This document shows positions 14,568-36,909 of a DNA stretch of 64,000 bases, in pieces. A program made the translations under genes and the position numbers. The notes under the pieces were generated by a model. It saw only the letters and a program-made list of their open reading frames with translations, was not told where the DNA came from and searched no databases. Numbering within the stretch: position 1 is the stretch's first letter; every line of letters begins with the position of its first letter. The stretch is taken from NCBI RefSeq assembly GCF_023101665.1, contig NZ_CP082161.1:6200001-6264000 (forward strand), in the 5' to 3' direction. This stretch comes from Bradyrhizobium sp. 195. GTDB taxonomy: Bacteria; Pseudomonadota; Alphaproteobacteria; Rhizobiales; Xanthobacteraceae.

Positions 14568-15818
14568 ATGTCGAAATGCAGTGTGGGACTGCTCGCGCTG
14601 AGCAGCCTGTTTCTTTCGGGCGCAGCGATCGCCCAGGAAAAGATCAAGGTGGGCGTGACCGCGACGCTCGAGGGCACCTACACGGTGCTCGGCGAGGACG
14701 GCATGCGCGGCCACCAGACCGCGCTCAACGTGCTGGGCAAGAAAATCGGCGACAAGGAGCTCGAATTCATCGTCGCCTCGACCGACGCGACACCGGACTC
14801 CGCCGTGCGCGCCGTGCGCAAGCTGATCGAGCAGGACAAGGTGCAGATCCTGCTCTCGCCGCTGTCCGGCGACGAGGGCATCGCGGTCAAGAACTTCGCA
14901 AAGACCCATCCCGAGCTGACCTTCATCAACGCGGCGTCCGGCGCGCAGGAAACGACCTATGTCGATCCTGCCCCGAACTTCTTCCGTTACAACATGGACG
15001 GCGCGCAGTGGCAGGTCGGCCTCGGCAAATACGCCTATGACGAAAAGAAGTATCGCAAGATCGCAACCGTCGGCGAGGACTATTCCTTCATCTACACCCA
15101 GGTATTCGGCCTCGTGCTCGAGTTCTGCGGCGCCGGCGGACAGATCACCAACCGGCAATGGGTGCCGCTCGGCACCAAGGATTTCGCCTCGGTCATCGCC
15201 GCGCTGCCCGACGATGTCGACGCGATCTATCTCGGCCTCGGCGGCGCCGATGCCGTGAACTTCCTCAACCAGTATCAGCAGGCCGGCGGCAAGGCGCATC
15301 TGATGGGCGGTTCCATCATGATCGACCAGACCATCCTGTCGTCCAAGGGCAACGCCAAGAACGCCCTGGTCGGCACCATCGCGGCGAGCGGCCAGGCCGA
15401 TACCTGGGACGATCCGGGCTGGCAGAAATTCGTGAAGGCCTATCAGGACGCCTTCCCGCCCAACAAGCGCTTCCCGAGCCCGTCACTGCTCGCGACCAAT
15501 TACTATGACTCGACCATGGCGCTGATCCTCGCGCTGCGTCAGGTCAATGGCGATCTCTCCAACAACCAGTCGAAGTTCAAGGAAGCGCTGGCGAAGATCG
15601 AGATCGATGCGCCGAACGGCAAGATCAAGCTCGACTCCAACCGTCAGGCGATCGGCACCAACTTCGTCACCGAAGTGGTCGACGACGGCAAGGGCGCGCT
15701 GTTCAGCAAGGTGGTGAAGGTGATCCCGAACGTGAACCAGACGCTGGGCTATGATCCAGCCGTATTCTCGAAGATCGGGCTGCCGAGCCGCACCGTGCCG
15801 GAATGTAAGAAGTACTGA
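14568..15818 (+). CDS. Branched-chain-type ABC transporter substrate-binding protein
   Basis: A periplasmic binding protein of 416 residues with a signal peptide (MSKCSVGLLALSSLFLSGAA, predicted cleavage after AIA). The mature part begins EKIKVGVTATLEGTYTVLG and has the two-lobed LivJ/Leu-Ile-Val-binding (Peripla_BP_6) pattern, including NAASGAQETTYVDPAPNFFR. The ligand of this subgroup may be an amino acid, amide or aromatic acid. A GGGAGGAG site precedes the ATG. It is separated from the permease and ATPase genes (17236-22308) by an AraC regulator and repeat DNA. It is most likely the binding protein of that importer. Confidence 0.9.
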   Translation: MSKCSVGLLALSSLFLSGAAIAQEKIKVGVTATLEGTYTVLGEDGMRGHQTALNVLGKKIGDKELEFIVASTDATPDSAVRAVRKLIEQDKVQILLSPLSGDEGIAVKNFAKTHPELTFINAASGAQETTYVDPAPNFFRYNMDGAQWQVGLGKYAYDEKKYRKIATVGEDYSFIYTQVFGLVLEFCGAGGQITNRQWVPLGTKDFASVIAALPDDVDAIYLGLGGADAVNFLNQYQQAGGKAHLMGGSIMIDQTILSSKGNAKNALVGTIAASGQADTWDDPGWQKFVKAYQDAFPPNKRFPSPSLLATNYYDSTMALILALRQVNGDLSNNQSKFKEALAKIEIDAPNGKIKLDSNRQAIGTNFVTEVVDDGKGALFSKVVKVIPNVNQTLGYDPAVFSKIGLPSRTVPECKKY

Positions 15819-15843
15819 CGCATCACGGCTGCAATGGACAACC

Positions 15844-15873
15844 GGGGAGCGACTTGCTGACGCGGTCGCTCTC
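15844..15873 (+). terminator. Probable terminator after the binding-protein gene
   Basis: GGGGAGCGAC (15844-15853) pairs, with one mismatch or bulge, to GTCGCTCTCC (15864-15873). The hairpin is 25 bp after the stop and is followed by GCTCTTG. Such a hairpin could lower expression of the downstream regulator relative to the abundant binding protein. Confidence 0.45.
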
Positions 15874-15942
15874 CGCTCTTGCAATCTCGTCGGCGTTGTT
15901 GAACGTTGACCCAAAAGACAAGAACATTCGGGAGGGGAAGGC

Positions 15943-16770
15943 ATGAGCCGTGCGCTCGCCGTCTTCCACGGCCGGTTCGGTCGGGCGACGGTTTATCAGT
16001 TGAACCGCCCTTTCAATATCCACGCCCATCGTGAAGGTCATCTGATCTTCCATGTCGGCGGCATGCCCGCATGCATCGACGTGTCGGACGGGCACCACGA
16101 TCTCAACGAGACGTCCGTCGTCGCGGTCAATCCCTGGGAGCCGCACAATTTCCTGCCTGCCGATCTGGACGGCGGCGCGATCTTCTTCGTGCTCTACGTC
16201 AATGCCGAATGGTTTGCGCCCGATGCCTCCGGCACCCATCGGCTGCGTTTCGGCCGCACCCAGTTCAAGCGCACGCCGGCACTCGACAAGCACATCAGGC
16301 GGACCGCCGCGCTCGTGTGCGGCGCACCATCGCTCTCCAGTCTGGATTCCGAGCTGCGGAGGTTGATCGACATCTGCTACGACGAAAGCTGGCAGCAGGC
16401 CGAGATCGCCCGCGATCCGCGCGCAAACGGCTCGGTCACCGATTTTCGCGTGCGCAAATGCATCAAGATGATGTCGGAAAGTCCCGGCGCTGAGATCGAG
16501 CTCGATACGATCGCGCGGGAATCCGGCCTGTCGCGACCACATTTCTATCGGCTATTCCGCGTCCAGACCGGCGTTACGCCGAACCTCTATCTCAACACGC
16601 TGATCATGGAACAGGCGCTCGAAGCACTGGTGGCAAGCGAGACGCCGATCGCCGATATCGGCTTCGATCTCGGCTTCTCCTCGCAAAGCGGTTTCACCCG
16701 CTTCTTCGCCGCCAACGTGGGGATGGCCCCGACCGATTATCGTCGCGCAGCCAAGATTTTGCGCGCCTGA
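15943..16770 (+). CDS. AraC-family regulator with cupin sensor domain
   Basis: A 275-residue activator. Residues 20-90 form an AraC-type cupin sensor (HAHREGHLIFHVGG, NPWEPHNFLP). The C-terminal 100 residues hold two helix-turn-helix units (LDTIARESGLSRPHFYRLFR and PIADIGFDLGFSSQSGFTRF) and end APTDYRRA. GGGAGGGGAAGGC precedes ATG 15943. It sits between the binding protein and the 18-gene operon on the same strand, so it is the natural candidate to control that operon in response to its substrate. This is inferred from position only. Confidence 0.87.
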   Translation: MSRALAVFHGRFGRATVYQLNRPFNIHAHREGHLIFHVGGMPACIDVSDGHHDLNETSVVAVNPWEPHNFLPADLDGGAIFFVLYVNAEWFAPDASGTHRLRFGRTQFKRTPALDKHIRRTAALVCGAPSLSSLDSELRRLIDICYDESWQQAEIARDPRANGSVTDFRVRKCIKMMSESPGAEIELDTIARESGLSRPHFYRLFRVQTGVTPNLYLNTLIMEQALEALVASETPIADIGFDLGFSSQSGFTRFFAANVGMAPTDYRRAAKILRA

Positions 16771-17235
16771 GCGCGGGCCACGAAAAGATACTCACGATCA
16801 AACGTTCCCCTGCGAGCCCGGCTAGGATGTCGGCAACGCGATCCCGAGAGAGGATTGCGACCGACGGGAGCGCACGTCCATGGCGAGGCCCGCAGCCGGC
16901 ATCGGCTTGCATGCCCCCTCGCCCCGCTTGCGGGGCCGAGACGAGCTTCGCTCGCTCTGGGAAGGCCGGGGTGTACCCGCGCCTTCCGTGCGACCTCTCC
17001 CCGCAATCACAGATGATCTCTTGGAACGGCCCGAGCAAGCGCCCCGTCCTTCGAGACGACCGCTCCGCGGTCTCCTCAGGATGAGGCTAAGCGGCTTGGA
17101 GCTCGTCAAACCTGCGGCTGCATACTCCGCCCTCATCCTGAGGCGCCCGCCAAGGCGGGCGTCTCGAAGGATCGGCCGCGGGGAATCCGCTTCCCATCTA
17201 CGATGGCCCTGCCACAAGCGAGGCGAGGCGGGACC
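16771..17235. other. Leader region of the 18-gene operon, repeat-rich, no gene
   Basis: 465 bp lie between the AraC gene and the first permease gene. The stretch 16905-16990 (CCCGCTTGCGGGGC hairpin, GGGAAGGCCGGGG) uses the same vocabulary as repeats at 1081-1150. The right half is a REP-like palindrome. The operon promoter and the AraC-binding sites must lie here or just upstream of 16860; I cannot point to a clear -35/-10 pair. Confidence 0.5.
17048..17171. repeat. REP-like nested palindrome in the operon leader
   Basis: TCCTTCGAGAC (17048-17058) pairs with GTCTCGAAGGA (17161-17171). Internal CCTCAGGATGAGG (17074-17086) pairs with CCTCATCCTGAGG (17131-17143). It belongs to the same dispersed family as 1731-1853. 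It ends 65 bp before the first permease start, so a transcript starting upstream would carry it as a large hairpin. Confidence 0.8.
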
Positions 17236-18246
17236 ATGAGCCGCTTTGTCGAACGCCATCCGGCCTGGGCGCTCATCGCAATCATTGCCGTTGCCGTCGC
17301 GCTCTGGCTGATCTTCGCGGTCTGGCCGCCGGGCCTCGAAGAGGCCGTCGGCCGCAAGCGCGTCTTCCTCAACGCAGTCTTCAACGGAATCACGCTCGGA
17401 GGGCTCTACTTCCTCGTCGCCAGCGGCTTCACGCTGATCTTCGGGCTGATGCGCAACGTCAACCTCGCGCACGGCTCGCTCTATCTGTTCGGCGGCTATG
17501 TCGGCTACGCCATCAGCACGGCGACCGGCTCCTGGGTGCTCAGCTTCATCGTCGCCTTCATCCTCACCGCCCTCGTCGGCATCCTGCTCCAGGTGATCGT
17601 GTTCCGTCGGATGGAGGGACAGGATCTCAGGCAGACCATGGTGACGATCGGGCTTTCGATCGTGTTCGCCGATCTCATGCTGTGGGCCTGCGGCGGCGAT
17701 TTCTACCAGATCCAGACACCGAACTGGCTGATCGGCCCCGTGGAGCTGCCGCTGGTCACGGCGATCAGATCCTCGGGCGAGCCGGTCTATCTCCGATATC
17801 CCATGGTGCGACTGGTGATCTTCGCCGCCTCGGTGGTCATTGGCGTCGCAATGTGGCTTGCGCTCAATCGCACCCGCATCGGCATGATCATTCGCGCCGG
17901 CGTCGACGACCGCGATATCCTCGCCGCGACAGGCGTGCGTATCCAGCTCGTCTTCGTAGCCGTGTTCGCGTTCGGCGCAGGTCTTGCGGGCATCGCCGGC
18001 GTCGTCGGCGGCACCTTCCAGTCGCTGTCGCCTGGCGAGGACATTCGCTTCCTGCTCGCCTCCCTCGTCGTCGTGATCGTGGGCGGCATGGGGTCGATCC
18101 CCGGCGCTGCGCTTGGGGCGCTGATCATCGGCCTCGCCGAACAGCTCGGCTCGGTCTACATCCCGACCTATGCCATCGTCGTGACCTTCCTGATCATGGT
18201 GCTGGTGCTGGCGATCCGGCCGCAAGGCCTGTTGGCGAGGCGCTGA
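17236..18246 (+). CDS. Branched-chain-type ABC transporter permease (LivH-like)
   Basis: The inner-membrane channel subunit, 336 residues. An N-terminal hydrophobic helix (WALIAIIAVAVALWLIF) precedes the LivH core. The core carries FNGITLGGLYFLVASGFTLI, NLAHGSLYLFGGYVGY and VVIVGGMGSIPGAALGALII, the conserved permease segments of the HAAT family. ATG 17236 is chosen: the upstream in-frame start at 17203 would add only repeat-derived residues, and GAGGCGGGA precedes 17236. It is the first gene of an 18-gene operon and is one base from the next gene. It should pair with the LivM-like protein to import the ligand of the binding protein at 14568. Confidence 0.93.
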   Translation: MSRFVERHPAWALIAIIAVAVALWLIFAVWPPGLEEAVGRKRVFLNAVFNGITLGGLYFLVASGFTLIFGLMRNVNLAHGSLYLFGGYVGYAISTATGSWVLSFIVAFILTALVGILLQVIVFRRMEGQDLRQTMVTIGLSIVFADLMLWACGGDFYQIQTPNWLIGPVELPLVTAIRSSGEPVYLRYPMVRLVIFAASVVIGVAMWLALNRTRIGMIIRAGVDDRDILAATGVRIQLVFVAVFAFGAGLAGIAGVVGGTFQSLSPGEDIRFLLASLVVVIVGGMGSIPGAALGALIIGLAEQLGSVYIPTYAIVVTFLIMVLVLAIRPQGLLARR

Positions 18247-18247
18247 C

Positions 18248-19330
18248 ATGTCGCTCGCCCACGATGCCCGCGTTACCGCATCTCCCGCCACAATGGCTCA
18301 GCGCGCGGCACGGACGTGGCCGGAGATCAACAATCCCGCGGCCTGGGTCGTCGCCGCCATCCTCCTGATCATGCCACTGATCGCCAACGGCTTCTTCCTG
18401 ATCGAGATCTTCGCCTCCACCTTGATCCTCGGCACCATGGCGCTCAGCCTGATGTTCCTCGCCGGCTATGGCGGCATGGTCAGCCTGATGCAGCTCACGA
18501 TCGCCGGCTTCTCGGCCTACATGGTCGCGGTGTTCGGCGTCAGCGGCAACGCCAATATCAGCCTGGGCTGGCCATGGTGGCTCGCGGTCCCCATGGCGCT
18601 CGCGCTGGCAACCGCCTTCGGCACGCTCGGCGGCGCGCTCGCGGTGCGCACCGAAGGCATCTACACCATCATGATCACGCTCGCGATCGGCGCGGCCTTC
18701 TATTATTTCACCAACCAGAACTGGGCGATCTTCAACGGCCATACCGGCATCAACACCGTGGCCACGCCACATTTCTGGGGCGTCAACTGGCGCGCGGACA
18801 TTCCCTTCTATTATATCGTGCTCGCGGTCGCCGCGCTTTGCTATTTCGCCGTCGAATATCTTTCGCGCGCCCCCTTCGGCCTCGCCCTTCAGGGCGTGCG
18901 CGACAATCCAAGGCGCATGGCGGCGCTCGGCTTCAACGTCAATGCGCACCGCATCGCCGCCTATGCGTTCGCCTCCTTCGTGGCCGCACTTGCCGGCGTG
19001 CTCCAGGTCTGGAACTACCGCCAGATTTCACCGGGCTCGGTCAGCGTCGGGGCCTGCATCGACGTGCTGATCATCGCCGTCGTCGGCGGCATCACGCGCC
19101 CGATCGGCCCCTTCATCGGCGCGCTGATCTTCGTGCTGCTGCGCACCTTCGCGCTCGACTTCCTGGTCAGGCTCGGACTCGACGGCAATCGCTTCCGGCT
19201 GCTGATCGGACTCGGCTTCCTCGCCATCGTGTTCTGGTCGTCGGACGGCGTCATCGGCCTGTGGCAGCGCTGGCGTCAGAGCCGGCGTCCGGCCGCAAAT
19301 CGACCTGGCGGAGGACGCGGCCATGGATAG
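18248..19330 (+). CDS. Branched-chain-type ABC transporter permease (LivM-like)
   Basis: The second membrane subunit, 360 residues, with about nine hydrophobic segments. LAGYGGMVSLMQLTIAGFSA is the LivM hallmark, followed by FGLALQGVRDNPRRMAALGF (the coupling-helix region facing the ATPases). VVGGITRPIGPFIGALIF matches the C-terminal core. It begins one base after the LivH-like stop and overlaps the following ATPase gene by 8 bp, so translational coupling is expected. The Arg/Gly-rich end (RRPAANRPGGGRGHG) is partly a consequence of that overlap. Confidence 0.93.
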   Translation: MSLAHDARVTASPATMAQRAARTWPEINNPAAWVVAAILLIMPLIANGFFLIEIFASTLILGTMALSLMFLAGYGGMVSLMQLTIAGFSAYMVAVFGVSGNANISLGWPWWLAVPMALALATAFGTLGGALAVRTEGIYTIMITLAIGAAFYYFTNQNWAIFNGHTGINTVATPHFWGVNWRADIPFYYIVLAVAALCYFAVEYLSRAPFGLALQGVRDNPRRMAALGFNVNAHRIAAYAFASFVAALAGVLQVWNYRQISPGSVSVGACIDVLIIAVVGGITRPIGPFIGALIFVLLRTFALDFLVRLGLDGNRFRLLIGLGFLAIVFWSSDGVIGLWQRWRQSRRPAANRPGGGRGHG

Positions 19331-20105
19331 CGTCGCGCAACGCCTCTCGGCCGTCGGCGCCGGTGCCGCGCTTGAGCTGCGCGGTGTGACGAGATTGTTC
19401 GGCGCGCTTGCCGCGCTGACCGATGTAACCATGACGGTGCGCCCCGGCGAACGCCGCGCCGTGCTCGGCTCCAACGGCGCCGGCAAGACCACGCTGTTCA
19501 ACTGCATCACCGGAGACTTCGCGCCCTCCTCCGGCACCATCCGCTTCTTCGGCGAGGACGTCACGCATTTCCCGCCCTATGAACGCATCCGCCGCGGGCT
19601 GCGCCGGACCTACCAGATCTCGGCCCTGTTCCCCGGCCTCACCGTGCAGGACAATGTCTATCTCGCCTGCCGCGGTGTCTCGCGCGGGCGCTTCTCGTTC
19701 CTGCGTCCGGGACAGAACGATGCCTTGATGCATGCGGCCGACAATCTGGTCCAGGCCGTGCATCTTTCCGCCGTGAAGGACCAGCGCGTGGCGGAGCTCG
19801 CGCACGGCCAGCAACGCCAGCTCGAGATCGCACTTGCGCTCGCCGGCGCCCCGCGCTTCGTGCTGTTCGACGAGCCCGCCGCCGGCCTGTCGCCGACCGA
19901 ACGGGCCGAGCTGATCGAGATCCTGACCTCCCTGCCGGCGCATATCGGCTACATCATCATCGAGCACGACATGGACGTGGCGCTACGCGTCGTCGAGAGC
20001 GTCACGATGATGCACAATGGCCGCGTCTTCAAGGAGGGCCTGCCGGAAGAGATCCAGTCCGACCCCGAGGTGCAGGAGCTTTATCTCGGAGGCGGCCATG
20101 AATGA
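19323..20105 (+). CDS. ABC transporter ATP-binding protein (LivG-like)
   Basis: A 260-residue nucleotide-binding subunit. Walker A is GSNGAGKTT, Walker B is FVLFDEPAAGLSP, the switch His lies in IIIEHDMDVALRV, and the Q-loop is in RTYQISALFPGLTV. The signature is LAHGQQRQLEIAL, the usual LivG variant of LSGGQ. It powers the permease pair together with the following fused ATPase. It overlaps neighbours by 8 bp on both sides. An extension of about 15 residues before the ABC domain (MDSVAQRLSAVGAGA) has no assigned role. Confidence 0.93.
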   Translation: MDSVAQRLSAVGAGAALELRGVTRLFGALAALTDVTMTVRPGERRAVLGSNGAGKTTLFNCITGDFAPSSGTIRFFGEDVTHFPPYERIRRGLRRTYQISALFPGLTVQDNVYLACRGVSRGRFSFLRPGQNDALMHAADNLVQAVHLSAVKDQRVAELAHGQQRQLEIALALAGAPRFVLFDEPAAGLSPTERAELIEILTSLPAHIGYIIIEHDMDVALRVVESVTMMHNGRVFKEGLPEEIQSDPEVQELYLGGGHE

Positions 20106-22308: not shown

Positions 22309-22311
22309 CCA

Positions 22312-23145: not shown

Positions 23146-23170
23146 CGCCGAAGGTACGAGGGAGGGAAAG

Positions 23171-26077: not shown

Positions 26078-26083
26078 GGTCGC

Positions 26084-26524: not shown

Positions 26525-26526
26525 CC

Positions 26527-26970: not shown

Positions 26971-26972
26971 TC

Positions 26973-27791: not shown

Positions 27792-27795
27792 AGCC

Positions 27796-28272: not shown

Positions 28273-28281
28273 GGTCAGACC

Positions 28282-29880
28282 ATGCTGGAACTGCGCAAGG
28301 ACATTTTCGCCGACGAGCGCGACGATAACCTCAAGGAAATCGGCAAGGGCACGCAACGTCAGGACATGCTTGGCCACGTCACGGGCACGTCGAGCTACTT
28401 CAATGATCACAAGCTGCAAGGCATGCTGCATCTGAAGGTCGTGCGCTCGACACAAGCCCATGCACGGATCCGTCGCATCGATACCACGGACGCAGAACGC
28501 TCGGCCGGCGTGCGCCGGATCATCCGTGGCACCGATGTCCCGGTCAATCTCAACACGCTTCTCAGCCTCATCAACTTCGGCAAGGATGACGAGCCCTCGC
28601 TGGCGGTCGACAAGGTCCGCTACAAGGGCGAGCCGGTCCTTGCCATTGTCGCCGACAGCGAACGCGAGGCGTTCGAGGCCATTGCCAAGGTCCGGATCGA
28701 TTACGAGCCCTTGCCGACCGTGTTCGATGTCGAGGATGCGCTGAAGTCCGGCGCGCCCGTGGTCAACGAGACCTATCCGAAGAACGCGTTTATCTATCAC
28801 GACGTATACGATCACCAGCGCCTGCGGTTCGGCGACGCCGATGCGGCGCTCGCGAGCGCCGATCACGTGCTGGAACAGCGCTACCAGATGTCGCCGATCG
28901 AGCACGCGCCGACCGAGACCAACGGCGCCATTGCCGCGCCCGACACCAACGGCCGCTACGTCGTCTACACCTCGACCCAGGCGCTGTTCTTCTCCGTCGA
29001 CACCTGCGCCAAGATCCTGGACGTGCCGTCCAACACCTTCCACTTCATCGGCGGTACCGTCGGTGGCGGCTTCGGCGGCAAGGTCGACACATTGACCGAG
29101 CCGCTCGCCATCCTCGGGGCGATGCTGACCGGACGCCCCGTCCGCTACGTGTTCGGGCGCGAGGAGGAGATGCAATACGGCCCGCCGCGCGGCGCCGAAC
29201 GCATCTACATCAAGGACGGCGTGATGCGCGACGGCCGCGTCGTCGCCCGCAAGATCCGCGCCTATTTCGACAGCGGCGCCTATACGCGACTGTCGAGCTA
29301 CGCCGCGGTCAAGTGTGCCGCGCATCTGCCGGGGCCCTACACCATCCCGAACGTCTATGGCGACGTCTATTGCGTCTTCACCAACCGCACGCCCGCGACC
29401 GCCATGCGCGGCTTCGGCGTCACCGCGATGGACTTTGCGATCGAGTGCCAGATGGACAAGCTCGCGAACCTCGTCGGCATGGACCCGATGGAGTTCCGCA
29501 TCCTCAACGCCTATCGCGACGGCGACATGAAGGCGCATCGACGCGAGGCCAAGAACACCGCCCTGATCGAATGCGTTCAGGTCGCGGCCGAAAAGGCCAA
29601 GTGGCCGATCCGCGACGAGTTCAAGCGTGCCTCCTCGCGCAAGGACGGCGGCGGCAGCCGCGCCATGATCCCGCCGACGCCGACGGACACGCGCGCGCGC
29701 CCCGCCGCGCCGTCGCAGCAGCGTACGAGCTACGACCGCGCGCCTGTCACCACGACGCGGGAGCCGCCGCGCGATCCGCCTCCGCCGGCACCGCCGCCTC
29801 TCCCCGCCCCGCCCGGCCGCGCCATCGCACGGCGCGACGCGGTTCTCATCCGTGTTCGGCACCAGGAGACGCTGACATGA
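28282..29880 (+). CDS. Molybdenum hydroxylase large subunit, N-terminal half, with Pro-rich tail
   Basis: 532 residues. Residues 15-450 cover the aldehyde-oxidase/xanthine-dehydrogenase a/b-hammerhead domain (GTSSYFNDHKLQGMLHLKVV) and the first molybdopterin-binding domain (GGTVGGGFGGKVD, TPATAMRGFGVTAMDFAIE). Residues about 451-532 are a Ser/Arg/Pro-rich tail (PRDPPPPAPPPLPAPPGR) absent from normal large subunits. The protein stops where an intact one would continue into its second domain, which is the next gene. The loop carries RGFG rather than the AYXCSFR loop of form I CO dehydrogenase, so CO oxidation is unlikely. The natural substrate may be a heterocycle or aldehyde. Confidence 0.9.
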   Translation: MLELRKDIFADERDDNLKEIGKGTQRQDMLGHVTGTSSYFNDHKLQGMLHLKVVRSTQAHARIRRIDTTDAERSAGVRRIIRGTDVPVNLNTLLSLINFGKDDEPSLAVDKVRYKGEPVLAIVADSEREAFEAIAKVRIDYEPLPTVFDVEDALKSGAPVVNETYPKNAFIYHDVYDHQRLRFGDADAALASADHVLEQRYQMSPIEHAPTETNGAIAAPDTNGRYVVYTSTQALFFSVDTCAKILDVPSNTFHFIGGTVGGGFGGKVDTLTEPLAILGAMLTGRPVRYVFGREEEMQYGPPRGAERIYIKDGVMRDGRVVARKIRAYFDSGAYTRLSSYAAVKCAAHLPGPYTIPNVYGDVYCVFTNRTPATAMRGFGVTAMDFAIECQMDKLANLVGMDPMEFRILNAYRDGDMKAHRREAKNTALIECVQVAAEKAKWPIRDEFKRASSRKDGGGSRAMIPPTPTDTRARPAAPSQQRTSYDRAPVTTTREPPRDPPPPAPPPLPAPPGRAIARRDAVLIRVRHQETLT

Positions 29881-30899
29881 CCAGGCATCGCGGACGCGGG
29901 ATGGCGTCGATCAACTATCCCATCGGCATGAACCTCGGCGGCGATCCAAGCCAGGCGCTGGTGCACTCCAATCCCAGCGGCAAGTTCACCGTGGCGCTGT
30001 CGTCGATCGATTTGGGACAGGGCATGAAATCGGTGACGCGGCAGATCTGCGCCGAGACACTGGGCGTGCCGGTCGAAGACGTCTATGTCGACACGGCGGA
30101 TTCCGACACCGGACCGCACTGCATGGGCTCGTTCGCCTCGCGCGGCACCCACCGCGTCGGCAATGCCGTGATGGCCGCCGCGCGCGAGGCCCGCGGGGTG
30201 ATGATGGAAGCGGCTGCCGAGGAGCTCGAGGTCAACGCGGCCGATCTCGAAACCGACGGCCGCGGCAATATCCACGTCAAGGGCGCGCCGCACCGCTCGA
30301 TCTCGACCAAGGACGTCGCGATCGCCGCGCAGTTCAAGCAGGGCAAGACCATCTCCGGCCGCGGCATCTTTCTCGTTCCGCTCTCCAACGTCGACCCAGA
30401 GACCGGCGAGATGTCGCCGGCAACCTGCTATGCCCATGCCTGCCTCGTTGCCGAGGTCGAGGTGGACGACGAGACCGGTGAGGTCGCGATGGTCCGGATG
30501 GATTCCGCCTATGAGCTCGGCCGCGCGCTCAACCCGCGCCTGGTCGAGCAACAGCTGGTCGGCGGCGCCTGGATGGGCGTCAGCCACGCGCTCTACGAGA
30601 CCCCGGAGCCCTATTATCCCGACCCCGTTCACGGCCCCCGCGACTTCGTCGAATATCTAATGCCCGGCCCCGGCGACATCTGCCCGCACGATATCGCAGT
30701 GCTGGAACGCCCTGCTCCTGATGGTCCTTTCGGGGCGAAAGGCCCCGGCGAGATGTGCGCCAATCCGGTGCTGCCGGCCGTCGCCAATGCGATCTTCAAC
30801 GCGGTCGGCGTGCGCATCGACGACCTGCCGATCACGCCCGAAAAGGTGCTGCGCGCGATCAAGAGCCAAGGCGGCGCACGACCGCAGGCACGGCGCTAG
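29877..30899 (+). CDS. Molybdenum hydroxylase large subunit, C-terminal half
   Basis: 340 residues equal to the second molybdopterin-binding domain of a xanthine-dehydrogenase-family large subunit. RGRGMASINYPIGM is followed by IDLGQGMKSVTRQICAETLG (Q-G contact to the cofactor), and by GPFGAKGPGEM, whose Glu292 is the expected catalytic base. It starts with ATG 29877 overlapping the stop of the N-terminal half by four bases (ATGA), so equimolar coupled synthesis is expected. Both halves keep their key residues, so this looks like a true two-gene subunit rather than a frameshift. A comparable split is known for nicotinate dehydrogenase of Eubacterium barkeri (NdhL/NdhM). Confidence 0.9.
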   Translation: MTRHRGRGMASINYPIGMNLGGDPSQALVHSNPSGKFTVALSSIDLGQGMKSVTRQICAETLGVPVEDVYVDTADSDTGPHCMGSFASRGTHRVGNAVMAAAREARGVMMEAAAEELEVNAADLETDGRGNIHVKGAPHRSISTKDVAIAAQFKQGKTISGRGIFLVPLSNVDPETGEMSPATCYAHACLVAEVEVDDETGEVAMVRMDSAYELGRALNPRLVEQQLVGGAWMGVSHALYETPEPYYPDPVHGPRDFVEYLMPGPGDICPHDIAVLERPAPDGPFGAKGPGEMCANPVLPAVANAIFNAVGVRIDDLPITPEKVLRAIKSQGGARPQARR

Positions 30900-30909
30900 A
30901 GGAACGGCC

Positions 30910-31791
30910 GTGGCGGTTCGCAGCAACATCGTCGGCATCGACAGCCCGGAGGCGCTGGAGAAGGCGCTTCGGGCGGCCTATTACCTCGCCGATGAAGGCC
31001 TTGCGACATCAGCCTATCTTGGCCTCGCGCTCGGCAAGCCGCTGCTGCTGGAAGGTGCGCCGGGTGTCGGCAAGACCGAGGCGGCAAAAGCGATCGCCGC
31101 CGTGCTCGGCCGCCGCCTGATCCGCCTGCAATGCTACGAGGGCATCGACGCGTCTGCCGCACTCTATGAGTGGAACTACCCGCGCCAGATGCTGGCGATC
31201 CGCCAGGCCGGTGACGAGAACATCGATATCTACGGCGAGACCTTCCTGATCGAGCGGCCGATGCTGGCCGCGCTGCGCGCGCCTGATTCCACCGTGCTGC
31301 TGATCGACGAAATCGACCGTGCCGATCAGGAGTTCGAGGCCTTCCTGCTCGAATTTCTCTCCGACTTCCAGATCTCCATTCCCGAGCGCGGTACGGTTCG
31401 CGCGACGGAACGCCCGGTCGTGGTCCTCACGTCGAACCGGACGCGCGATCTGCACGAGGCGCTGCGCCGCCGCTGCGTCTATCACTGGATCGACTATCCC
31501 AGCGCCGAGCGGGAAGCACGGATCATCATGATGCGCGCCTCCAGCGTCGCCGAGGCCACCGCCCGCGCCGTCGTCGCAGCCGTCGAGAAGTTGCGGCGCG
31601 AACCCCTGAGCAAGGCGCCCGGTATCGCCGAGGCTGTCGACTGGGCCGAAGCCGCGACGCTACTGCACAAGGGCGGCGCGCGCTGGCCGGACGCGTTCAA
31701 GCGCTCGATCGGCGTGGCGCTCAAGGACGAAGAGGATCTGCATTTCATCTCGCCGCGGCTCGATGCCATGCTCGCGGAGGCGACCGCATGA
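30910..31791 (+). CDS. MoxR-type AAA+ ATPase (CoxD-like)
   Basis: A 293-residue AAA+ protein: Walker A GAPGVGKT at 49-56, Walker B VLLIDEIDRAD at 129-138, sensor region VVVLTSNRTRDLHEALRRRC with its arginine finger. In cox-type clusters CoxD, a MoxR-type ATPase, works with the VWA protein CoxE in assembling the metal site of a molybdenum hydroxylase. The same pairing follows here (31788), so it is probably the dedicated chaperone for the enzyme at 26973-30899. The start is GTG 30910, ten bases after the previous stop; GGAAC lies upstream. Confidence 0.9.
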   Translation: MAVRSNIVGIDSPEALEKALRAAYYLADEGLATSAYLGLALGKPLLLEGAPGVGKTEAAKAIAAVLGRRLIRLQCYEGIDASAALYEWNYPRQMLAIRQAGDENIDIYGETFLIERPMLAALRAPDSTVLLIDEIDRADQEFEAFLLEFLSDFQISIPERGTVRATERPVVVLTSNRTRDLHEALRRRCVYHWIDYPSAEREARIIMMRASSVAEATARAVVAAVEKLRREPLSKAPGIAEAVDWAEAATLLHKGGARWPDAFKRSIGVALKDEEDLHFISPRLDAMLAEATA

Positions 31792-32909
31792 CCACCGAGC
31801 CGCAGCTCCCGCGCGCCGCACGCATCTTCGTCGCCTTCGTCCCGCTGCTGCGCGTCAACGGCTTTGCCGTGGCACCGGAGCAAACCACGACGTTCCTCGC
31901 GGCGATCGAGCTGCTCGGTCCGCGCGATATCGAACACGTCAGGCAAGCCGCCCTAGCGACGTTGGCGCCCCCACCCGAGCGACGCGCGACCTTCGACCGA
32001 TTGTTCGATCTCCACTTCCGCGGCAGCGAGGCGATCACGCGCGATGACGAGGGCGAGGACGACGAGACGGTTCGGCTTCAGGAAGAAGGCCGCGGTGACG
32101 AGGAGCCGCTTCTCTCCGAAGAGGCGAGCGAGTCCGGCCTCACCGCGACGCGTACCGAGGCCTTGGTCGAACGCCGCTTTGCGACGACCGCGAGCACAGA
32201 CGCCCTGCGCCGCCTGACACGCGAGGCCCCGCGCCGCCTGCCGCGACGGCGCGGCCATCGCCGCATGCGCGCCCGTCGCGGCCCGTTTGCCGATCTCCGC
32301 CGCACCTTGCGCGACAGCGTCCGCAGCGACGGCGAGATCCTGCGGCTTGGTCACATGAAGCGGCGCCAGCGTCCGCGCAAGATGCTGCTGCTGATTGACG
32401 TCTCTGGCTCGATGAAGGGGCGCACCGAGGAGAACATGAAGCTCGCGCATGCGTTGGTGCAGGCTGCCCCGAATGTAGAAGTCTTCACTTTCGGCACGCG
32501 GCTGACCCGCATCACCCGGCCGTTGCGGCTGAAGCGCCGCGAGCAGGCGATGAACGCAGCCGCGCATCTGGTCAGCGATTGGGACGGCGGCACCCGCATC
32601 GGCGACGCACTGCAGGCCTTTCTCGCCGTGCCCCGCTTCGGCGGCTATGCCCGCGGCGCCGCCGTGGTGATCGTTTCCGACGGTCTCGAGCGCGGCGAGA
32701 CCGACGCGCTTCGCGATGCCGCCGCGAAGCTGTCTCGGCGGGCCTGGCGCTTGAGCTGGTTGACGCCGCTGGCGACAAGCCCGGGCTTCCGCCCGCAGAC
32801 CGAGGCGCTCGTCGCCATCGAGCGCTTCGTCGATGACCTCGTGGATGGCGGTTCGAGCGCGTCGATCGTCGCGCATATTCTCGCGTTGGGACGAAGGAGA
32901 GCGGCGTGA
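31788..32909 (+). CDS. VWA-domain protein (CoxE-like)
   Basis: A 373-residue partner of the MoxR ATPase. The N-terminal 190 residues are Arg/Glu-rich (an acidic stretch at 86-106, then RRLPRRRGHRRMRARRGPF). The C-terminal von Willebrand A domain has a perfect MIDAS motif DVSGSMKG (Asp204-Ser208). SDWDGGTRIGDALQAFL and VIVSDGLERGETD are later VWA blocks. The ATG start overlaps the ATPase stop by four bases. Family knowledge links MoxR-VWA pairs to metal-centre maturation of large enzymes. No XdhC/CoxF-type gene is in the operon, so sulfuration of the molybdenum cofactor must come from elsewhere. Confidence 0.9.
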   Translation: MTTEPQLPRAARIFVAFVPLLRVNGFAVAPEQTTTFLAAIELLGPRDIEHVRQAALATLAPPPERRATFDRLFDLHFRGSEAITRDDEGEDDETVRLQEEGRGDEEPLLSEEASESGLTATRTEALVERRFATTASTDALRRLTREAPRRLPRRRGHRRMRARRGPFADLRRTLRDSVRSDGEILRLGHMKRRQRPRKMLLLIDVSGSMKGRTEENMKLAHALVQAAPNVEVFTFGTRLTRITRPLRLKRREQAMNAAAHLVSDWDGGTRIGDALQAFLAVPRFGGYARGAAVVIVSDGLERGETDALRDAAAKLSRRAWRLSWLTPLATSPGFRPQTEALVAIERFVDDLVDGGSSASIVAHILALGRRRAA

Positions 32910-33790
32910 CCGGTATTGTCGATGGCCATCATCATATCTGGCGGCAGGACGACCTGCCCTGGCTGATCGGCCCCATGCAACCGCGCATCTTCGGACCTTA
33001 CGAGCCGATCCGGCGCGACTATCCGATCGAGGAATATCTCGACGACCTCAAGGACATCGGCGTCACCCAGTCGGTCTATGTGCAGACCAACTGGGCCAAC
33101 GACCGTTTTGAAGATGAGGCCGCCTGGGTTCAACAGACAGCGGACGAACACGGCTGGCCGCACGCGATCGTCGCCTATGCCAATTTCGCCGTGGACGACG
33201 TGCGCCCGCAGCTCGATCGCCTGAAACGCTATTCCCTGGTGCGCGGCGTACGCATGCAGCTGCACTGGCACGAGAACCCGCTTTACCGCTTTGCGGCCCG
33301 CCCGGATCTCTGCGCCGATCCGACGATCCAACGCAACGTCGCGCGCCTTGCTGATTATGGCTGGAGCTTCGATTTGCAGGTGTTCACTCCGCAGATGCCG
33401 GAAGCCGCAGCGCTTGCCGAGGCCTGCCCCAGGGTGACCTTCATCCTGCAGCATGCCGGCATGCTGGAGGATCTCTCGCCAGCAGGCCGCGTAGCCTGGC
33501 GCGGCGGCATGGCCCGGCTCGCGGCCTGCCCCAACGTGGTCTCAAAGCTCTCCGGGCTCGGCACCTTCATCCATCGCAACGATCCCGCGCACATTGCCGC
33601 CGTGCTTATTGACACCGTCGCGATCTTCGGCGCCGAGCGTTGCCTGTTCGGCTCCAACTTCCCGATCGAGAAATTGTGGACCAGCTATCGCGACCTCGTG
33701 GACGCCTTTCGCAGCGCCGCCGCGCCGTTCAGTGCAGAGCAGCAGGACGCGATCTTCAGCGCTACCGCAGCGCGCGTGTATCGACTTTGA
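32906..33790 (+). CDS. Amidohydrolase-family (amidohydrolase_2) hydrolase
   Basis: A 294-residue TIM-barrel hydrolase of the LigI/L-fuconolactonase/ACMSD-like group. The metal-binding HxH is DGHHHIW near residue 8. VRGVRMQLHWHEN and FILQHAGMLEDL (His) follow, with CLFGSNFPIEKLW at the end of the barrel. The usual final Asp (GSDWP) is Asn here. It probably opens a lactone or decarboxylates/hydrolyses a ring-cleavage product after the molybdenum hydroxylase step; the exact reaction is not predicted. The start is GTG 32906 overlapping the VWA stop by four bases. Confidence 0.87.
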   Translation: MTGIVDGHHHIWRQDDLPWLIGPMQPRIFGPYEPIRRDYPIEEYLDDLKDIGVTQSVYVQTNWANDRFEDEAAWVQQTADEHGWPHAIVAYANFAVDDVRPQLDRLKRYSLVRGVRMQLHWHENPLYRFAARPDLCADPTIQRNVARLADYGWSFDLQVFTPQMPEAAALAEACPRVTFILQHAGMLEDLSPAGRVAWRGGMARLAACPNVVSKLSGLGTFIHRNDPAHIAAVLIDTVAIFGAERCLFGSNFPIEKLWTSYRDLVDAFRSAAAPFSAEQQDAIFSATAARVYRL

Positions 33791-33820
33791 CAGACAAGAA
33801 CAGATGAGGGAGGGCAACGA

Positions 33821-34669
33821 ATGGCGCTGGAGATCAAGATCCTGGACTATGGCGATATCGAGCTGGAATCGAGCTTTCTGGTGCTCGGCCGCGATTGCGG
33901 CCGCACCCGCCGTGTCCTCACCCTCGGCTTCCTGATCCTCGGGGGGAAATATCCTGTTGTGGTCGACACCGGCTATCGCTCCAACCAGATCATGGAGACG
34001 CTGGGCATGCGCGGGCTGCAGTATCACGAGAACATGATCGAGAACCAGCTCGCGCGTTACGGCGTGCGCATGGGCGACGTCCGCTTCGTCTGCCACACCC
34101 ATCTGCACATCGACCATGCCGGCAAGGACGATCTGTTTCCGATGAACACGACCGTCGTGCTCAACCGCAAGGAGCTCGAATATTCCGTCTCCGGCCTGAT
34201 GCATCCGCAATATCCGGCGCCCGACATCAAGCACCTGATCGACCGCCTGCACACCAAGAGCGCGCTGCGTTTCCTTGACCTCGAGATCACCGGTCCGATC
34301 GAGCTGATGCCCGGCGTCTATTGCGACGCCGCCAATGCGCATACGGAGGGCTCCATGAACATCATCGTCGAGACAGCCGACGGGATTGCGACCATCTGCG
34401 GCGACGTGATCTACGACTTCAACGATCAGATCGTGACGCCGTTCAACGAGATCCATGACTGGGAGCCACGCACGACGGGCAATCACGGCACCAGCAAGCG
34501 CGCGGAGAAGGCCTCGATCAAGAAGCTCCTGAGCAATTCGCGCTATTTGCTGCCCGTGCACGACCATCCCGCCAAGATCGAAGGCGGCAACGTCGTCGGG
34601 CGCCTGCACGATCAGGTCCCCGGCCCGATCGTGCAATCGCTGCCGGCACGCAACTGGTTTCCAGCGTAA
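33821..34669 (+). CDS. Metallo-beta-lactamase-fold hydrolase (N-acyl homoserine lactonase-like)
   Basis: A 282-residue MBL-fold enzyme. The zinc motif HTHLHIDHAG, the later NAHTEGSMNIIVE (His) and CGDVIYDF (Asp) fit a dinuclear site like AiiA-type lactonases. GFLILGGKYPVVVDTGYRSN is the typical first strand pair. A lactone- or ester-opening step is plausible in this pathway. A quorum-quenching function is only a family association. An AGGGAGGGCAACG site precedes ATG 33821. It is the first gene in the operon after a gap as large as 30 bp. Confidence 0.88.
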   Translation: MALEIKILDYGDIELESSFLVLGRDCGRTRRVLTLGFLILGGKYPVVVDTGYRSNQIMETLGMRGLQYHENMIENQLARYGVRMGDVRFVCHTHLHIDHAGKDDLFPMNTTVVLNRKELEYSVSGLMHPQYPAPDIKHLIDRLHTKSALRFLDLEITGPIELMPGVYCDAANAHTEGSMNIIVETADGIATICGDVIYDFNDQIVTPFNEIHDWEPRTTGNHGTSKRAEKASIKKLLSNSRYLLPVHDHPAKIEGGNVVGRLHDQVPGPIVQSLPARNWFPA

Positions 34670-34689
34670 CGTGACCTAAGGATCGACCG

Positions 34690-36279
34690 ATGACCCACGT
34701 CACCTTGCGAAGCGAGTTCGAGACCCTGATCGACCCCTATGCGCCGGTCGCGCAGGTCGGCACCGGCTTCGACTTCACGGAGGGGCCGATCTGGCATCCG
34801 GTCGATCACTATCTGCTGTTCTCCGACATGCCGGCCGACGTGCGCCGGCGCTGGGATGCGCGACGCGGTGTGGTCGAGGTCAAGCGCCCCTCCAACAAAT
34901 GCAACGGCATGACCTATGATGCCGAGCTCAATCTCATTGTCTGCGAGCACGCGACGTCGCAGCTAGTCCGCGAGCGGCCGGATGGGCGACGCGAGGTGCT
35001 GGCTTCGCATTTTGGGGGACAGGAGCTGAACAGCCCGAACGACGTCTGCGTGCACTCCTCCGGCGCGATCTATTTCTCGGACCCCTGGTACGGCCGCATG
35101 CCGGTCTACGGCGTCGAGCGACCGCGCCAGCTCGGATTCCAGGGCGTCTATCGCGTCGTCCCCGGCGGCGAACCGAAGCTCGTGGTCGAGCGCAATCTGT
35201 TCGACCAGCCCAACGGCTTGTGCTTTTCGCCGGACGAGAAGCTGCTCTATGTCAACGACACCGTGCAAGCGCTGATCCGCGTCTTCGACGTCGATGGCGA
35301 CGGTTCGCTGTCGAATGCGCGGGTGTTCGCAAGCGGCATTCGCTCCGAGCTGGAGCCCGGCTTGCCCGACGGCATGAAGTGCGATCAGCACGGCAATGTC
35401 TGGGTCACCGCGCCCGGCGGCGTCTGGGTCTATTCGCCGCGCGGCGAGGTGCTCGGCAAAGTCCGCGTCCCCGAGATGGTCGCCAACCTCGCCTGGGGCG
35501 GGCCGGATTTCCGCATGCTTTACCTGACCTCGACCCATTCGGTGTACGCGATCCCGACCAAGGTCGGCCCGCGGCACGAGCCCTATATGAGCGGCCGGCG
35601 AAGCGGCGGCGGCGCGACTGCAAGCGGCGCGACTGCAAGCGCCGCGCCGGCGGCGCCCATCCTCGCCGATGGCGAGATGCGGCTCGATCCGCAGCGCTGC
35701 GCCATGATCATCCAGGACCTGCAGAACGACGTCATCATGGACGGCGGCGCCTTCGCCGATTCAGGCGCGCCCGGCCACGCGAAGCAACAGCATGTCGTCG
35801 AGAATGTCCGGCGTCTGGCGGAGACCGCGCGCGCCCGCGGCGTCGCCGTCATCCATGTCTGGTTCGTCGTCGAGCCCGGCGCGCCCGGCGTCACGCTGAA
35901 TGCGCCGTTATTCGAAGGCGTCGTCGACAGCAAGGCGATGGTGCGCGGCAGCTGGGGCGCGGCGCCCGTGTCCGGCCTCGAGCCACGGCCCGGCGATTTC
36001 GTCGTCGAGAAGATGCGCATGAGCGCCTGGGAAGGCACGCGGCTCGAGACCATCCTGAAGGCGACCGGACGCGACATGATCATCAATACCGGCGCCTGGA
36101 CCAACATGTCGGTCGAGCACACCGCCCGAACCGGCGCCGACAAGGGCTACTTCATGATCGTTCCGGAGGATTGCTGCTCGACCATGAATGCCGACTGGCA
36201 CGCCGCCTCGATCAATTTCGCCATGCAGAACGTCGCGATCGTCACCCGGGCCGATGCCGTCATCCGGGCGTTGGGATGA
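34690..36279 (+). CDS. SMP-30/gluconolactonase domain fused to an isochorismatase-like domain
   Basis: A 529-residue two-domain hydrolase. Residues 15-298 form a six-bladed SMP-30/gluconolactonase propeller: FTEGPIWHP (metal Glu31), NSPNDVCVHSSGAIYFSDPW and LPDGMKCDQHGNVWVT. A Gly/Ala/Ser linker (301-323) holds a tandem GATAS pair. Residues 330-529 form an isochorismatase/nicotinamidase-type fold with Asp343 and Lys441 of the usual triad. Ser474 (TGAWTNMSVEHTARTG) replaces the nucleophilic Cys. The lactonase could act on the pathway product. The second domain may be inactive as a Cys hydrolase or use another chemistry, as true isochorismatases lack the Cys. Confidence 0.88.
   Translation: MTHVTLRSEFETLIDPYAPVAQVGTGFDFTEGPIWHPVDHYLLFSDMPADVRRRWDARRGVVEVKRPSNKCNGMTYDAELNLIVCEHATSQLVRERPDGRREVLASHFGGQELNSPNDVCVHSSGAIYFSDPWYGRMPVYGVERPRQLGFQGVYRVVPGGEPKLVVERNLFDQPNGLCFSPDEKLLYVNDTVQALIRVFDVDGDGSLSNARVFASGIRSELEPGLPDGMKCDQHGNVWVTAPGGVWVYSPRGEVLGKVRVPEMVANLAWGGPDFRMLYLTSTHSVYAIPTKVGPRHEPYMSGRRSGGGATASGATASAAPAAPILADGEMRLDPQRCAMIIQDLQNDVIMDGGAFADSGAPGHAKQQHVVENVRRLAETARARGVAVIHVWFVVEPGAPGVTLNAPLFEGVVDSKAMVRGSWGAAPVSGLEPRPGDFVVEKMRMSAWEGTRLETILKATGRDMIINTGAWTNMSVEHTARTGADKGYFMIVPEDCCSTMNADWHAASINFAMQNVAIVTRADAVIRALG
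35611..35640 (+). repeat. Tandem 15-bp duplication in the inter-domain linker
   Basis: GGCGCGACTGCAAGC occurs twice, back to back, at 35611-35625 and 35626-35640. It encodes GATAS twice in the flexible linker between the two hydrolase domains. The identical third positions indicate a recent duplication. Confidence 0.9.
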
Positions 36280-36282
36280 CCC

Positions 36283-36909
36283 GTGGCCAAGCTCCTGCAC
36301 CTGTCCTGCTCGCCTCGCGCCGACTCCGAGTCCAGTGCGGGCGCGCGCGTCTTTCTCGACGGCTTTCGTCAGGCCCGGCCGGACTGGGACGTCGATGTCA
36401 TGGACATCTGGCGGGAACGGATGCCGGAATTCTCGGGTCCCATCGTCGAGGCCAAATATGCACGGATGAGTGGGCAAGCCTTCAACGATGCGCAACGCGA
36501 CGGCTTTGCCGAGGCCGAGCGCATGGCGCTGCGCCTGTCGCTTGCCGATCGCGTGCTGATCTCCACGCCGATGTGGAACTTCGGCATTCCCTACAAGCTC
36601 AAGCAATGGTTCGACATCATCGTCCAGCCCGGGCTGACTTTTCGGTTCGATCCGTCGCAGGGCTATCTTCCACTGCTCAAGGACCGGCCGACGCTGGTGA
36701 TCCTCGCCAGCGGCAGCGACTTTGCCACCGGCATGAACCGCGGCCGCATCGACATGGCAACGCCTTACCTGCGGGACATCCTGCGCTTCATCGGTATCGA
36801 CAATGTCCGTTTCGTGCCGATCGGACCAACCACCGGACCGCAGCAGCCGATCGAGGCCGCACGGGACAGGGCGCATCGGCGTCTGGCTGCAATGGCCACG
36901 ACCTTCTGA
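36283..36909 (+). CDS. FMN-dependent NADH-azoreductase / flavodoxin-like oxidoreductase
   Basis: A 208-residue flavodoxin-fold protein of the AzoR/NQO family. LLHLSCSPRADSESSAGARVF is the FMN phosphate loop region, and STPMWNFGIPYKLKQWFDII is the strongly conserved isoalloxazine-contact motif. It reduces quinones or azo/aromatic substrates using NAD(P)H. It is the last gene of the operon, starting at GTG 36283 three bases after the previous stop. It could keep quinone intermediates reduced or act as the electron sink. No terminator-like hairpin is obvious in the 82 bp before the convergent gene. Confidence 0.88.
   Translation: MAKLLHLSCSPRADSESSAGARVFLDGFRQARPDWDVDVMDIWRERMPEFSGPIVEAKYARMSGQAFNDAQRDGFAEAERMALRLSLADRVLISTPMWNFGIPYKLKQWFDIIVQPGLTFRFDPSQGYLPLLKDRPTLVILASGSDFATGMNRGRIDMATPYLRDILRFIGIDNVRFVPIGPTTGPQQPIEAARDRAHRRLAAMATTF

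Follow-up and report, generated by a model that had tools for sequence, protein, structure and literature searches.

A run of 18 genes for an ATP-binding cassette (ABC) importer, a molybdenum (Mo) hydroxylase, scaffold-like proteins and hydrolases is found in a 64,000-nucleotide stretch of the Bradyrhizobium sp. 195 genome (contig NZ_CP082161.1, positions 6,200,001 to 6,264,000; the whole stretch is called the window here, and its first letter is position 1). The run extends from 17236 to 36909, all on the + strand, with no gap longer than 30 bp and with neighbours overlapping by 4 or 8 bp at five junctions; along the 18 genes, the gaps and overlaps are, in order, 1, -8, -8, 3, 25, 6, 2, 2, 4, 9, -4, 10, -4, -4, 30, 20, and 3 bp. 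Upstream of the run lie a gene for a Peripla_BP_6 binding protein and then a gene for an AraC-family regulator (Table 1). An initial annotation made from the letters alone had described this layout, including the leading pair, as a candidate uptake-and-breakdown system; the layout was re-derived from the sequence, and the gene-family assignments are borne out by Pfam.

Table 1. Features of the locus, with coordinates counted from the first letter of the window
Feature	Coordinates	Strand	Family match and conservation
Periplasmic ligand-binding protein, HAAT importer type	14568..15818	+	Peripla_BP_6, Pfam 168 bits
AraC-family regulator	15943..16770	+	HTH_18 77 bits; 29/34 loci
Candidate regulator site, 20-bp conserved block	16782..16801	+	One IUPAC pattern fits 8/8 Bradyrhizobium intergenic regions
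Permease, LivH-like	17236..18246	+	BPD_transp_2; 34/34 loci
Permease, LivM-like	18248..19330	+	BPD_transp_2; 34/34 loci
ABC ATPase, LivG-like	19323..20105	+	ABC_tran + BCA_ABC_TP_C; 34/34 loci
LivF-type ABC ATPase fused to UPF0261 (Tm-1 N-half), 736 aa	20098..22308	+	ABC_tran, PF06792, PF23189
PEP-hydrolase-like TIM barrel (Tm-1 C-half homologue)	22312..23145	+	PF09370 436 bits; Mll9387 structure 2p10, E 1e-121
SPFH/flotillin-type membrane scaffold, 968 aa, long charged coiled-coil-like region	23171..26077	+	Band_7 + Flot
SRPBCC protein 1	26084..26524	+	Polyketide_cyc2; XoxI structure 3cnw, E 1e-16
SRPBCC protein 2	26527..26970	+	Polyketide_cyc2
Mo hydroxylase FAD subunit	26973..27791	+	FAD_binding_5 + CO_deh_flav_C
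Mo hydroxylase [2Fe-2S] subunit	27796..28272	+	Fer2 + Fer2_2
Mo large subunit N-half (NdhL-like)	28282..29880	+	Ald_Xan_dh_C + MoCoBD_1
Mo large subunit C-half (NdhM-like)	29877..30899	+	MoCoBD_2; Glu292 in 40/40 rows
MoxR-type AAA+ maturation ATPase	30910..31791	+	AAA_5; MadB-like, 270 bits vs cut-off 475
VWA maturation protein (CoxE-like)	31788..32909	+	VWA_CoxE; DxSxS metal site in 37/39 rows, 2 gaps
Amidohydrolase-2, fuconolactonase-like	32906..33790	+	Amidohydro_2; NF052480 108 bits vs cut-off 400; nearest structure 4dlf
MBL-fold lactonase-like hydrolase	33821..34669	+	Lactamase_B; HxHxDH in 23/23 rows
SMP-30/gluconolactonase + isochorismatase-like fusion, Asp-Lys-Ser replacing Asp-Lys-Cys	34690..36279	+	SGL + Isochorismatase
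Flavodoxin_2 (azoreductase-like) protein	36283..36909	+	Flavodoxin_2; Bradyrhizobium loci only

Conservation of the gene run and its regulator

In a sample of 297 genomes of the same order, 50 match the LivF-UPF0261 fusion protein over 640 or more of its 736 residues, and 45 of those 50 loci, denoted here by L numbers, were fetched besides the window. Thirty carry the C-terminal half (C-half) of the Mo large subunit and eight belong to a second operon type (see below), while L060 and L063 show the early Mo genes before the contig ends, and L062, L064, and L070 end sooner. Adding the loci of Yoonia and Shinella and two more from a separate search to these thirty brings the number that hold both the importer fusion and the Mo enzyme, the two anchors, to 34. 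The initial annotation had suggested a gene-neighbourhood comparison with the fusion as an anchor, and by this comparison 33 of the 34 loci are colinear, the exception being L055, where the binding-protein gene sits at the opposite end; the two SRPBCC genes, which match each other, were omitted from the test. Because of this colinearity, the run is more than a chance assembly. For Nonomuraea, Sinorhizobium BG8, and Shinella, which are unannotated in the stretch, de novo gene calls were used, and presence was scored by tblastn in loci with no gene calls (L056, L057, L065, L203) or few (L102, L204, L224).

The SPFH gene is present in all 34 loci (scored by its first 200 residues) and the TIM-barrel gene in 31, being undetected in three. 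The binding-protein gene is detected in 17, and in the remaining 17 that flank was outside the fetched sequence. The Flavodoxin_2 gene that ends the run is found in five of the 34, all Bradyrhizobium, and L044 is a further one. Furthermore, dN/dS values against two Bradyrhizobium relatives range from 0.02 to 0.28 for the AraC gene and the 18 operon genes, indicating purifying selection on these 19 genes; the AraC gene and the last gene were compared over partial length. Distances of the importer fusion and of the Mo halves also correlate (r 0.86-0.88 in 31 loci, L102 being dropped), where common descent alone yields some correlation. The locus is a real, conserved and probably single-purpose operon. 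An FAH/HpaH-like gene (36992) and a LysR gene (38057) were considered as pathway members and rejected: neither was seen next to it in the two Bradyrhizobium relatives whose downstream flanks were examined (L194 and L198).

Directly behind the AraC gene, a 20-bp block is kept in all eight Bradyrhizobium loci, and most of the remaining intergenic sequence diverges. In the 9.1 Mb genome (3 contigs), it is a single site when up to two mismatches are allowed, and the reversed control gives zero. Such is the pattern expected from a dedicated regulator with one target, and the block is a candidate AraC site. A site common to relatives beyond Bradyrhizobium was rejected, with no match there at three or fewer mismatches. 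Conserved order, an AraC gene with a single-copy block behind it, and importer genes contiguous with catabolic genes speak for the uptake-and-breakdown unit of the initial annotation.

The LivF-UPF0261 fusion in two operon types

The importer is of the HAAT type, as it comprises a Peripla_BP_6 protein, two BPD_transp_2 permeases, and LivG and LivF ATPases. A urea ABC transporter (Urt) was rejected, all NCBIfam cut-offs being missed (UrtA 64/493, UrtB 166/250, UrtC 91/296, UrtD 205/304, UrtE 220/286 bits). The gene at 20098 indeed encodes a fusion, as had been claimed, but it joins a LivF-type ATPase to UPF0261; the lactonase/isochorismatase-like fusion is a separate gene at 34690. Residues ~1-240 of the 20098 product are the LivF-type ATPase, carrying the Walker and signature motifs, and UPF0261 starts from ~326. 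The latter part matches crystal structures of the tomato virus-resistance protein Tm-1, 3wry and 3wrw (E ~1e-97; 2e-97 for 3wry) as well as the UPF0261 structure entry 9mpy. PF06792, PF23189, and PF09370, covering the UPF0261 and TBST domains of the Tm-1 family, are spread over two adjacent genes; the split Tm-1 noted earlier is therefore upheld, with the N-half on the fusion and the C-half homologue as the next gene. Among the Bradyrhizobium homologues of the fusion that were listed, many bear the mistaken name "ABC transporter permease" in NCBI records.

In bacteria, UPF0261 and TBST genes are described as usually separate and co-evolving; the relevant passages of that paper name no bacterial function, and "ABC transporter" is absent from its text (PMC5028733). 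For this widespread pair, no bacterial function was found in the parts of the literature covered. Like Tm-1, the window has both halves, side by side, but UPF0261 is joined to an importer ATPase and not to its TIM-barrel partner, and no antiviral role is implied. The locus offers a bounded, conserved setting for working out what UPF0261 and its TIM-barrel partner, relatives of plant Tm-1, do biochemically.

In a UPF0261-domain tree of 61 rows, from which two of 63 fusion-family rows were removed for a missing motif and in which L083 and two unfused rows are long-branched, the 46 fused proteins form one clade (99/99), and the 15 unfused proteins fall outside. The fused clade divides into a Mo-type-bearing clade (38 rows, 98/96), a label that takes in L061 and L068 (Mo part absent) and L062, L064, and L070 (contig ends first), and a clade of the second operon type (8 rows, 96/87). 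The LivF-UPF0261 fusion arose once and serves two operon types.

The second type, known from nine loci (the eight order loci and Variovorax), has the importer/Tm-1/SPFH/SRPBCC part without the Mo enzyme. Upstream are genes for an FAH-family hydrolase and an Amidohydro_1 protein (both 9/9), an alpha/beta hydrolase (8/9), and a divergent GntR-like regulator (7/9); then come two permeases, a binding protein, LivG, LivF-UPF0261, the TIM barrel (undetected in three of the nine), SPFH, SRPBCC, and an SRPBCC-MDR fusion. In this fusion, checked in two of the nine loci, the counterpart of SRPBCC 2 is joined to a zinc MDR quinone-oxidoreductase-like domain. Since the Mo enzyme is swapped for the SRPBCC-MDR fusion, one importer-Tm-1-SPFH-SRPBCC module appears with two oxidation systems, and the SRPBCC-MDR fusion further supports SRPBCC proteins partnering a redox enzyme. 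Flotillin-type scaffolds and SRPBCC proteins are thereby linked, in a testable way, to importers and Mo hydroxylases.

The nearest structures of SRPBCC 1, the only one of the two searched in this way, are 2le1 and XoxI. CoxG, an SRPBCC-type protein of the CO dehydrogenase cluster, is described as dispensable for maturation, with a suggested role in bringing the enzyme to the membrane (PMC4240915). A CoxG-type quinone carrier is not supported by the sequence of the window proteins, which match PF10604, the CoxG family not being among the families obtained; because they fall in another Pfam family, a CoxG-like role is an analogy only. The SPFH gene (23171-26077) has no tandem repeats at the DNA level.

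Unfused UPF0261 genes also occur, in L089-L096, mostly with a TIM-barrel gene, and sit among sugar-type importers; several of these loci add GFO/IDH/MocA and xylose-isomerase-like genes. Given this association with sugar-type importers, Mo chemistry is not a fixed companion of the UPF0261 pair.

The split Mo hydroxylase, the hydrolases and partner genes in relatives

The Mo hydroxylase had been called a four-gene enzyme. Four genes stand, and the description can be sharpened: two of them, which overlap at 29877 (ATGA), encode one half each of the large subunit. The best structure for both halves is nicotinate dehydrogenase (NDH), residues 18-439 (of 532) of the N-half matching 6-415 of its large subunit (3hrd_A), and residues 3-331 (of 340) of the C-half matching 2-328 of its medium subunit (3hrd_B). 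The halves are separate genes in all 38 loci, the window included, where both were called, and in five another open reading frame (ORF) intervenes, namely an EamA transporter gene in L072-L074 and a small ORF in L055 and L069. Because of these intervening ORFs, the halves are separate polypeptides, and a frameshift or assembly error is ruled out by them together with the separation in 38/38 loci. L072-L074 represent one family of the order, and two of the three also have a methyltransferase gene between the SRPBCC genes (L072:15270-16214, L074:4590-5528, L072:10857-11666 for these insertions). In Sinorhizobium BG8, the N-half itself reads as two overlapping pieces in different frames (L101:18631-19997).

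At the purine-binding Glu position (the Glu after GGFGGK, bovine Glu802), Val268 is found in 39/39 rows; Lys344 is likewise invariant (39/39), and Glu292 is kept in 40/40. A purine xanthine dehydrogenase was rejected on account of this Val and of XdhA scores of 276 + 154 bits, the halves being scored apart, against a cut-off of 780. Aerobic CO dehydrogenase was rejected too (NCBIfam large-subunit model, 168 + 117 bits for the halves against 991); the Mo subunits reach no NCBIfam cut-off. In NDH of Eubacterium barkeri (NdhFSLM, PDB 3HRD), the large Mo subunit is split at the same place, and its gene order, F-S-L-M, is the order here. However, the similarity is moderate, the N-half here has an extra tail of ~90 residues, and the MoxR/VWA, importer, SPFH, and SRPBCC genes accompany the enzyme, with no reductase or enamidase. 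The Mo loop here reads AMRGFG, whereas CO dehydrogenase has a Cys motif.

The CO dehydrogenase cluster coxMSLDEFG, whose models score far under cut-off here, is similar in having genes for FAD, FeS, and Mo subunits, an AAA+ ATPase (CoxD), a VWA protein (CoxE), and an SRPBCC-superfamily protein (CoxG), and CoxD is described as required for sulfuration of the Mo site (PMC4240915). The MoxR/VWA pair of the window fits CoxD/CoxE-type maturation.

In a phylum sample, the C-half is matched at E 1e-90 or better in 14 of 349 genomes, its own included, and homologues sharing 61-63% identity are encoded on a haloarchaeal plasmid and by Nonomuraea. A core of FAD, FeS, two Mo-half, MoxR, VWA, and amidohydrolase genes exists outside the full operon, without this importer (Nonomuraea L100, Sinorhizobium BG8 L101, L188-L192), and a CUT2-type importer adjoins it in L188-L191. 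Near the Mo genes of Salinigranum are Amidohydro_2, cyclase-family, and SRPBCC genes. Among the best 80 of 563 relatives in a C-half scan, all of at least 96% identity, the record label is Bradyrhizobium for 79 and "Frankia sp. RB7" for one; the latter (contig L180, 97% identical to the window's C-half) is probably a mislabelled or contaminated genome.

As for the hydrolases, the metallo-beta-lactamase (MBL)-fold protein is nearest to acyl-homoserine lactone (AHL) lactonases and 4-pyridoxolactonase. An AHL or gamma-butyrolactone lactonase proper was rejected by the scores (AttM/BlcC 39/390, AiiA 51/375 bits), the metal motif being nonetheless present. In the isochorismatase-like domain, Asp343 is kept in 26, Lys441 in 25, and Ser474 in 24 of 27 rows, the remainder being gaps, with no Cys. 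A Cys-type isochorismatase amidase was thus rejected, since Ser474 stands in the Cys place of the Asp-Lys-Cys triad, a place judged from the motif.

In relatives, further enzymes join the locus. An iron-containing alcohol dehydrogenase (Fe-ADH) gene lies between the binding-protein and AraC genes in 12 of the 15 non-Bradyrhizobium loci with that flank (tblastn identified nine, clustering two, and annotation one). The top family is 4-hydroxybutyrate dehydrogenase for all 12 (NF058672, cut-off 500 bits): two proteins exceed the cut-off (Shinella L103, 523.7; L218, 504.5), and the other ten, one of which is cut by the locus edge, score 86-447 bits. An aldehyde dehydrogenase (ALDH) gene is present in 4/15 loci, and the three scanned are nearest to 2-oxoglutarate-semialdehyde or 2,5-dioxovalerate dehydrogenase, none above cut-off. 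To judge from these families, the hydrolases and Fe-ADH/ALDH favour a route from a lactone or lactam through a 4-hydroxy acid to a C4/C5 dicarboxylate. The Agrobacterium gamma-butyrolactone operon blcABC/attKLM, which is not known to include a Mo hydroxylase or an importer, is comparable in that the window has an MBL-fold lactonase-like protein, and relatives of the window locus add the 4-hydroxybutyrate-dehydrogenase-like Fe-ADH and, in some cases, a semialdehyde dehydrogenase. However, the lactonase here is distantly related, and the Fe-ADH is absent beside the window operon.

A candidate import-and-catabolism pathway and its rivals

Taken together, we propose one inducible import-and-catabolism operon in which Mo hydroxylation would be followed by opening of a lactone or lactam to a 4-hydroxy acid that enters central metabolism; we give this reading a probability of roughly 45%. 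A small, polar substrate, probably heterocyclic or of lactol type, would enter through the HAAT-type importer. The NDH-like four-subunit Mo hydroxylase, matured by MoxR/VWA, would put a water-derived oxygen beside the ring heteroatom and so form a lactone- or lactam-like compound, which the Amidohydrolase-2, the MBL-fold enzyme, and the gluconolactonase domain may open to a hydroxy acid. In most of the relatives that are not Bradyrhizobium, the 4-hydroxybutyrate-dehydrogenase-like Fe-ADH, sometimes with the semialdehyde dehydrogenase, would convert this acid to a C4/C5 dicarboxylate. Probably, the SPFH and SRPBCC proteins keep enzyme, carrier, and importer at the membrane, and UPF0261 on the importer ATPase and its TIM-barrel partner act, at the entry step, either on the substrate or on how active the importer is. 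The initial annotation had likewise proposed Mo hydroxylation followed by lactone-type opening, which fits the enzyme families; its "one compound" is a conjecture, and the modules also occur apart.

Several observations weigh against the proposed operon. Promoter and terminator scans, which fit sigma-70 sites only, gave no excess over shuffles. The hydrolases score far under the curated lactonase cut-offs, where models exist, and the isochorismatase domain has no role in a simple lactone route. The Fe-ADHs are diverse, with 10/12 below cut-off and four at 86-151 bits over a partial model; that of Yoonia has no Pfam match at 1e-5, and the gene is missing from its place in L048, L055, and L083. 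Neither Fe-ADH nor ALDH is present in the four Bradyrhizobium loci with the flank (window, L040, L041, L045), and the closest Fe-ADH that the genome of the window offers is 35% identical. The importer part and the Mo core are separable across genomes, and L061 (~5.8 kb of flank) and L068 (~13 kb) have AraC through the TIM-barrel gene and no SPFH, SRPBCC, or Mo part in the flank. Beside the Mo genes of Salinigranum, no MoxR/VWA homologue was found.

Among the alternatives, catabolism of an N-heteroaromatic compound deserves the most attention, even if it is rather unlikely. The Mo enzyme would then be a true NDH counterpart that hydroxylates a carboxylated N-heterocycle, and the amidohydrolase, MBL, and isochorismatase domains would open the lactam and remove nitrogen. 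NDH as the best structure for both Mo halves agrees with this, as does the basic Lys344, which aligns with an Arg of 3hrd_A when the alignment is read by eye (39/39 rows), and RutB and other amidases are similar to the isochorismatase-like domain, although the nucleophile of the latter is Ser in 24/27 rows. The operon families, on the other hand, include no reductase, ring dioxygenase, or enamidase, the sequence similarity to NDH is moderate only, and the 4-hydroxybutyrate-dehydrogenase-like partner of relatives takes alcohols, not amines. Or the Mo enzyme may be an aldose or lactol dehydrogenase yielding an aldonolactone for the lactonases. We hold this oxidative sugar-type pathway to be somewhat less probable still, since no sugar-acid dehydratase or aldolase is among the operon families, the window importer is of the HAAT type, and the Mo halves most resemble NDH among solved structures; it can nevertheless draw on the gluconolactonase-type and fuconolactonase-like hydrolases, the resemblance of the relatives' ALDH to 2-oxoglutarate-semialdehyde dehydrogenase, and the CUT2 sugar-type importer adjoining the same Mo core in L188-L191.

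That the importer/Tm-1/SPFH module and the Mo-hydroxylase module are adjacent by happenstance and form no single pathway is improbable: each is found without the other, but the overlaps are tight, 33/34 loci are colinear, the Mo-part loci all belong to one clade of the fusion protein, and importer-fusion and Mo-half distances correlate. Scavenging of lactone signals or toxic lactones, such as acyl-homoserine or butyrolactone signals, appears the least probable of all. It would suit the lactonase-like MBL protein, whose Yoonia homologue is annotated as an N-acyl homoserine lactonase family protein, but the AttM and AiiA scores are low (39 vs 390 and 51 vs 375 bits), and the MBL gene is undetected in L083, L103, and L185, where the genes on either side are detected.

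To our knowledge, the gene combination and the LivF-UPF0261 fusion are novel, and the locus is a variant of importer-plus-Mo-hydroxylase catabolic systems. As the initial annotation had supposed, no described pathway with this combination was found in the literature, among the matches listed and mostly in non-subscription journals; the matches listed for Shinella Teo12 gave no substrate clue. The operon points to a compound as yet undescribed, on which Bradyrhizobium, Shinella, marine Yoonia, and others may draw. A bolder and doubtful idea is that LivF-UPF0261 marks a new kind of importer, in which an ATP-binding Tm-1 domain and the TIM barrel would chemically trap or activate the entering compound, and the flotillin-type scaffold and SRPBCC carriers would hand it over, at the membrane, to interchangeable oxidoreductases (the split Mo hydroxylase or the MDR quinone oxidoreductase). 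If true, this would be a membrane-bound import metabolon and a first function for the protein family that gave plants the virus-resistance protein Tm-1.

A minor feature of the intergenic region is an additional stretch of ~240-270 bp (16960-17220), which is complete in one of seven Bradyrhizobium relatives (L040). It bears a palindromic element (17132-17172) that has one more near copy elsewhere in the genome.

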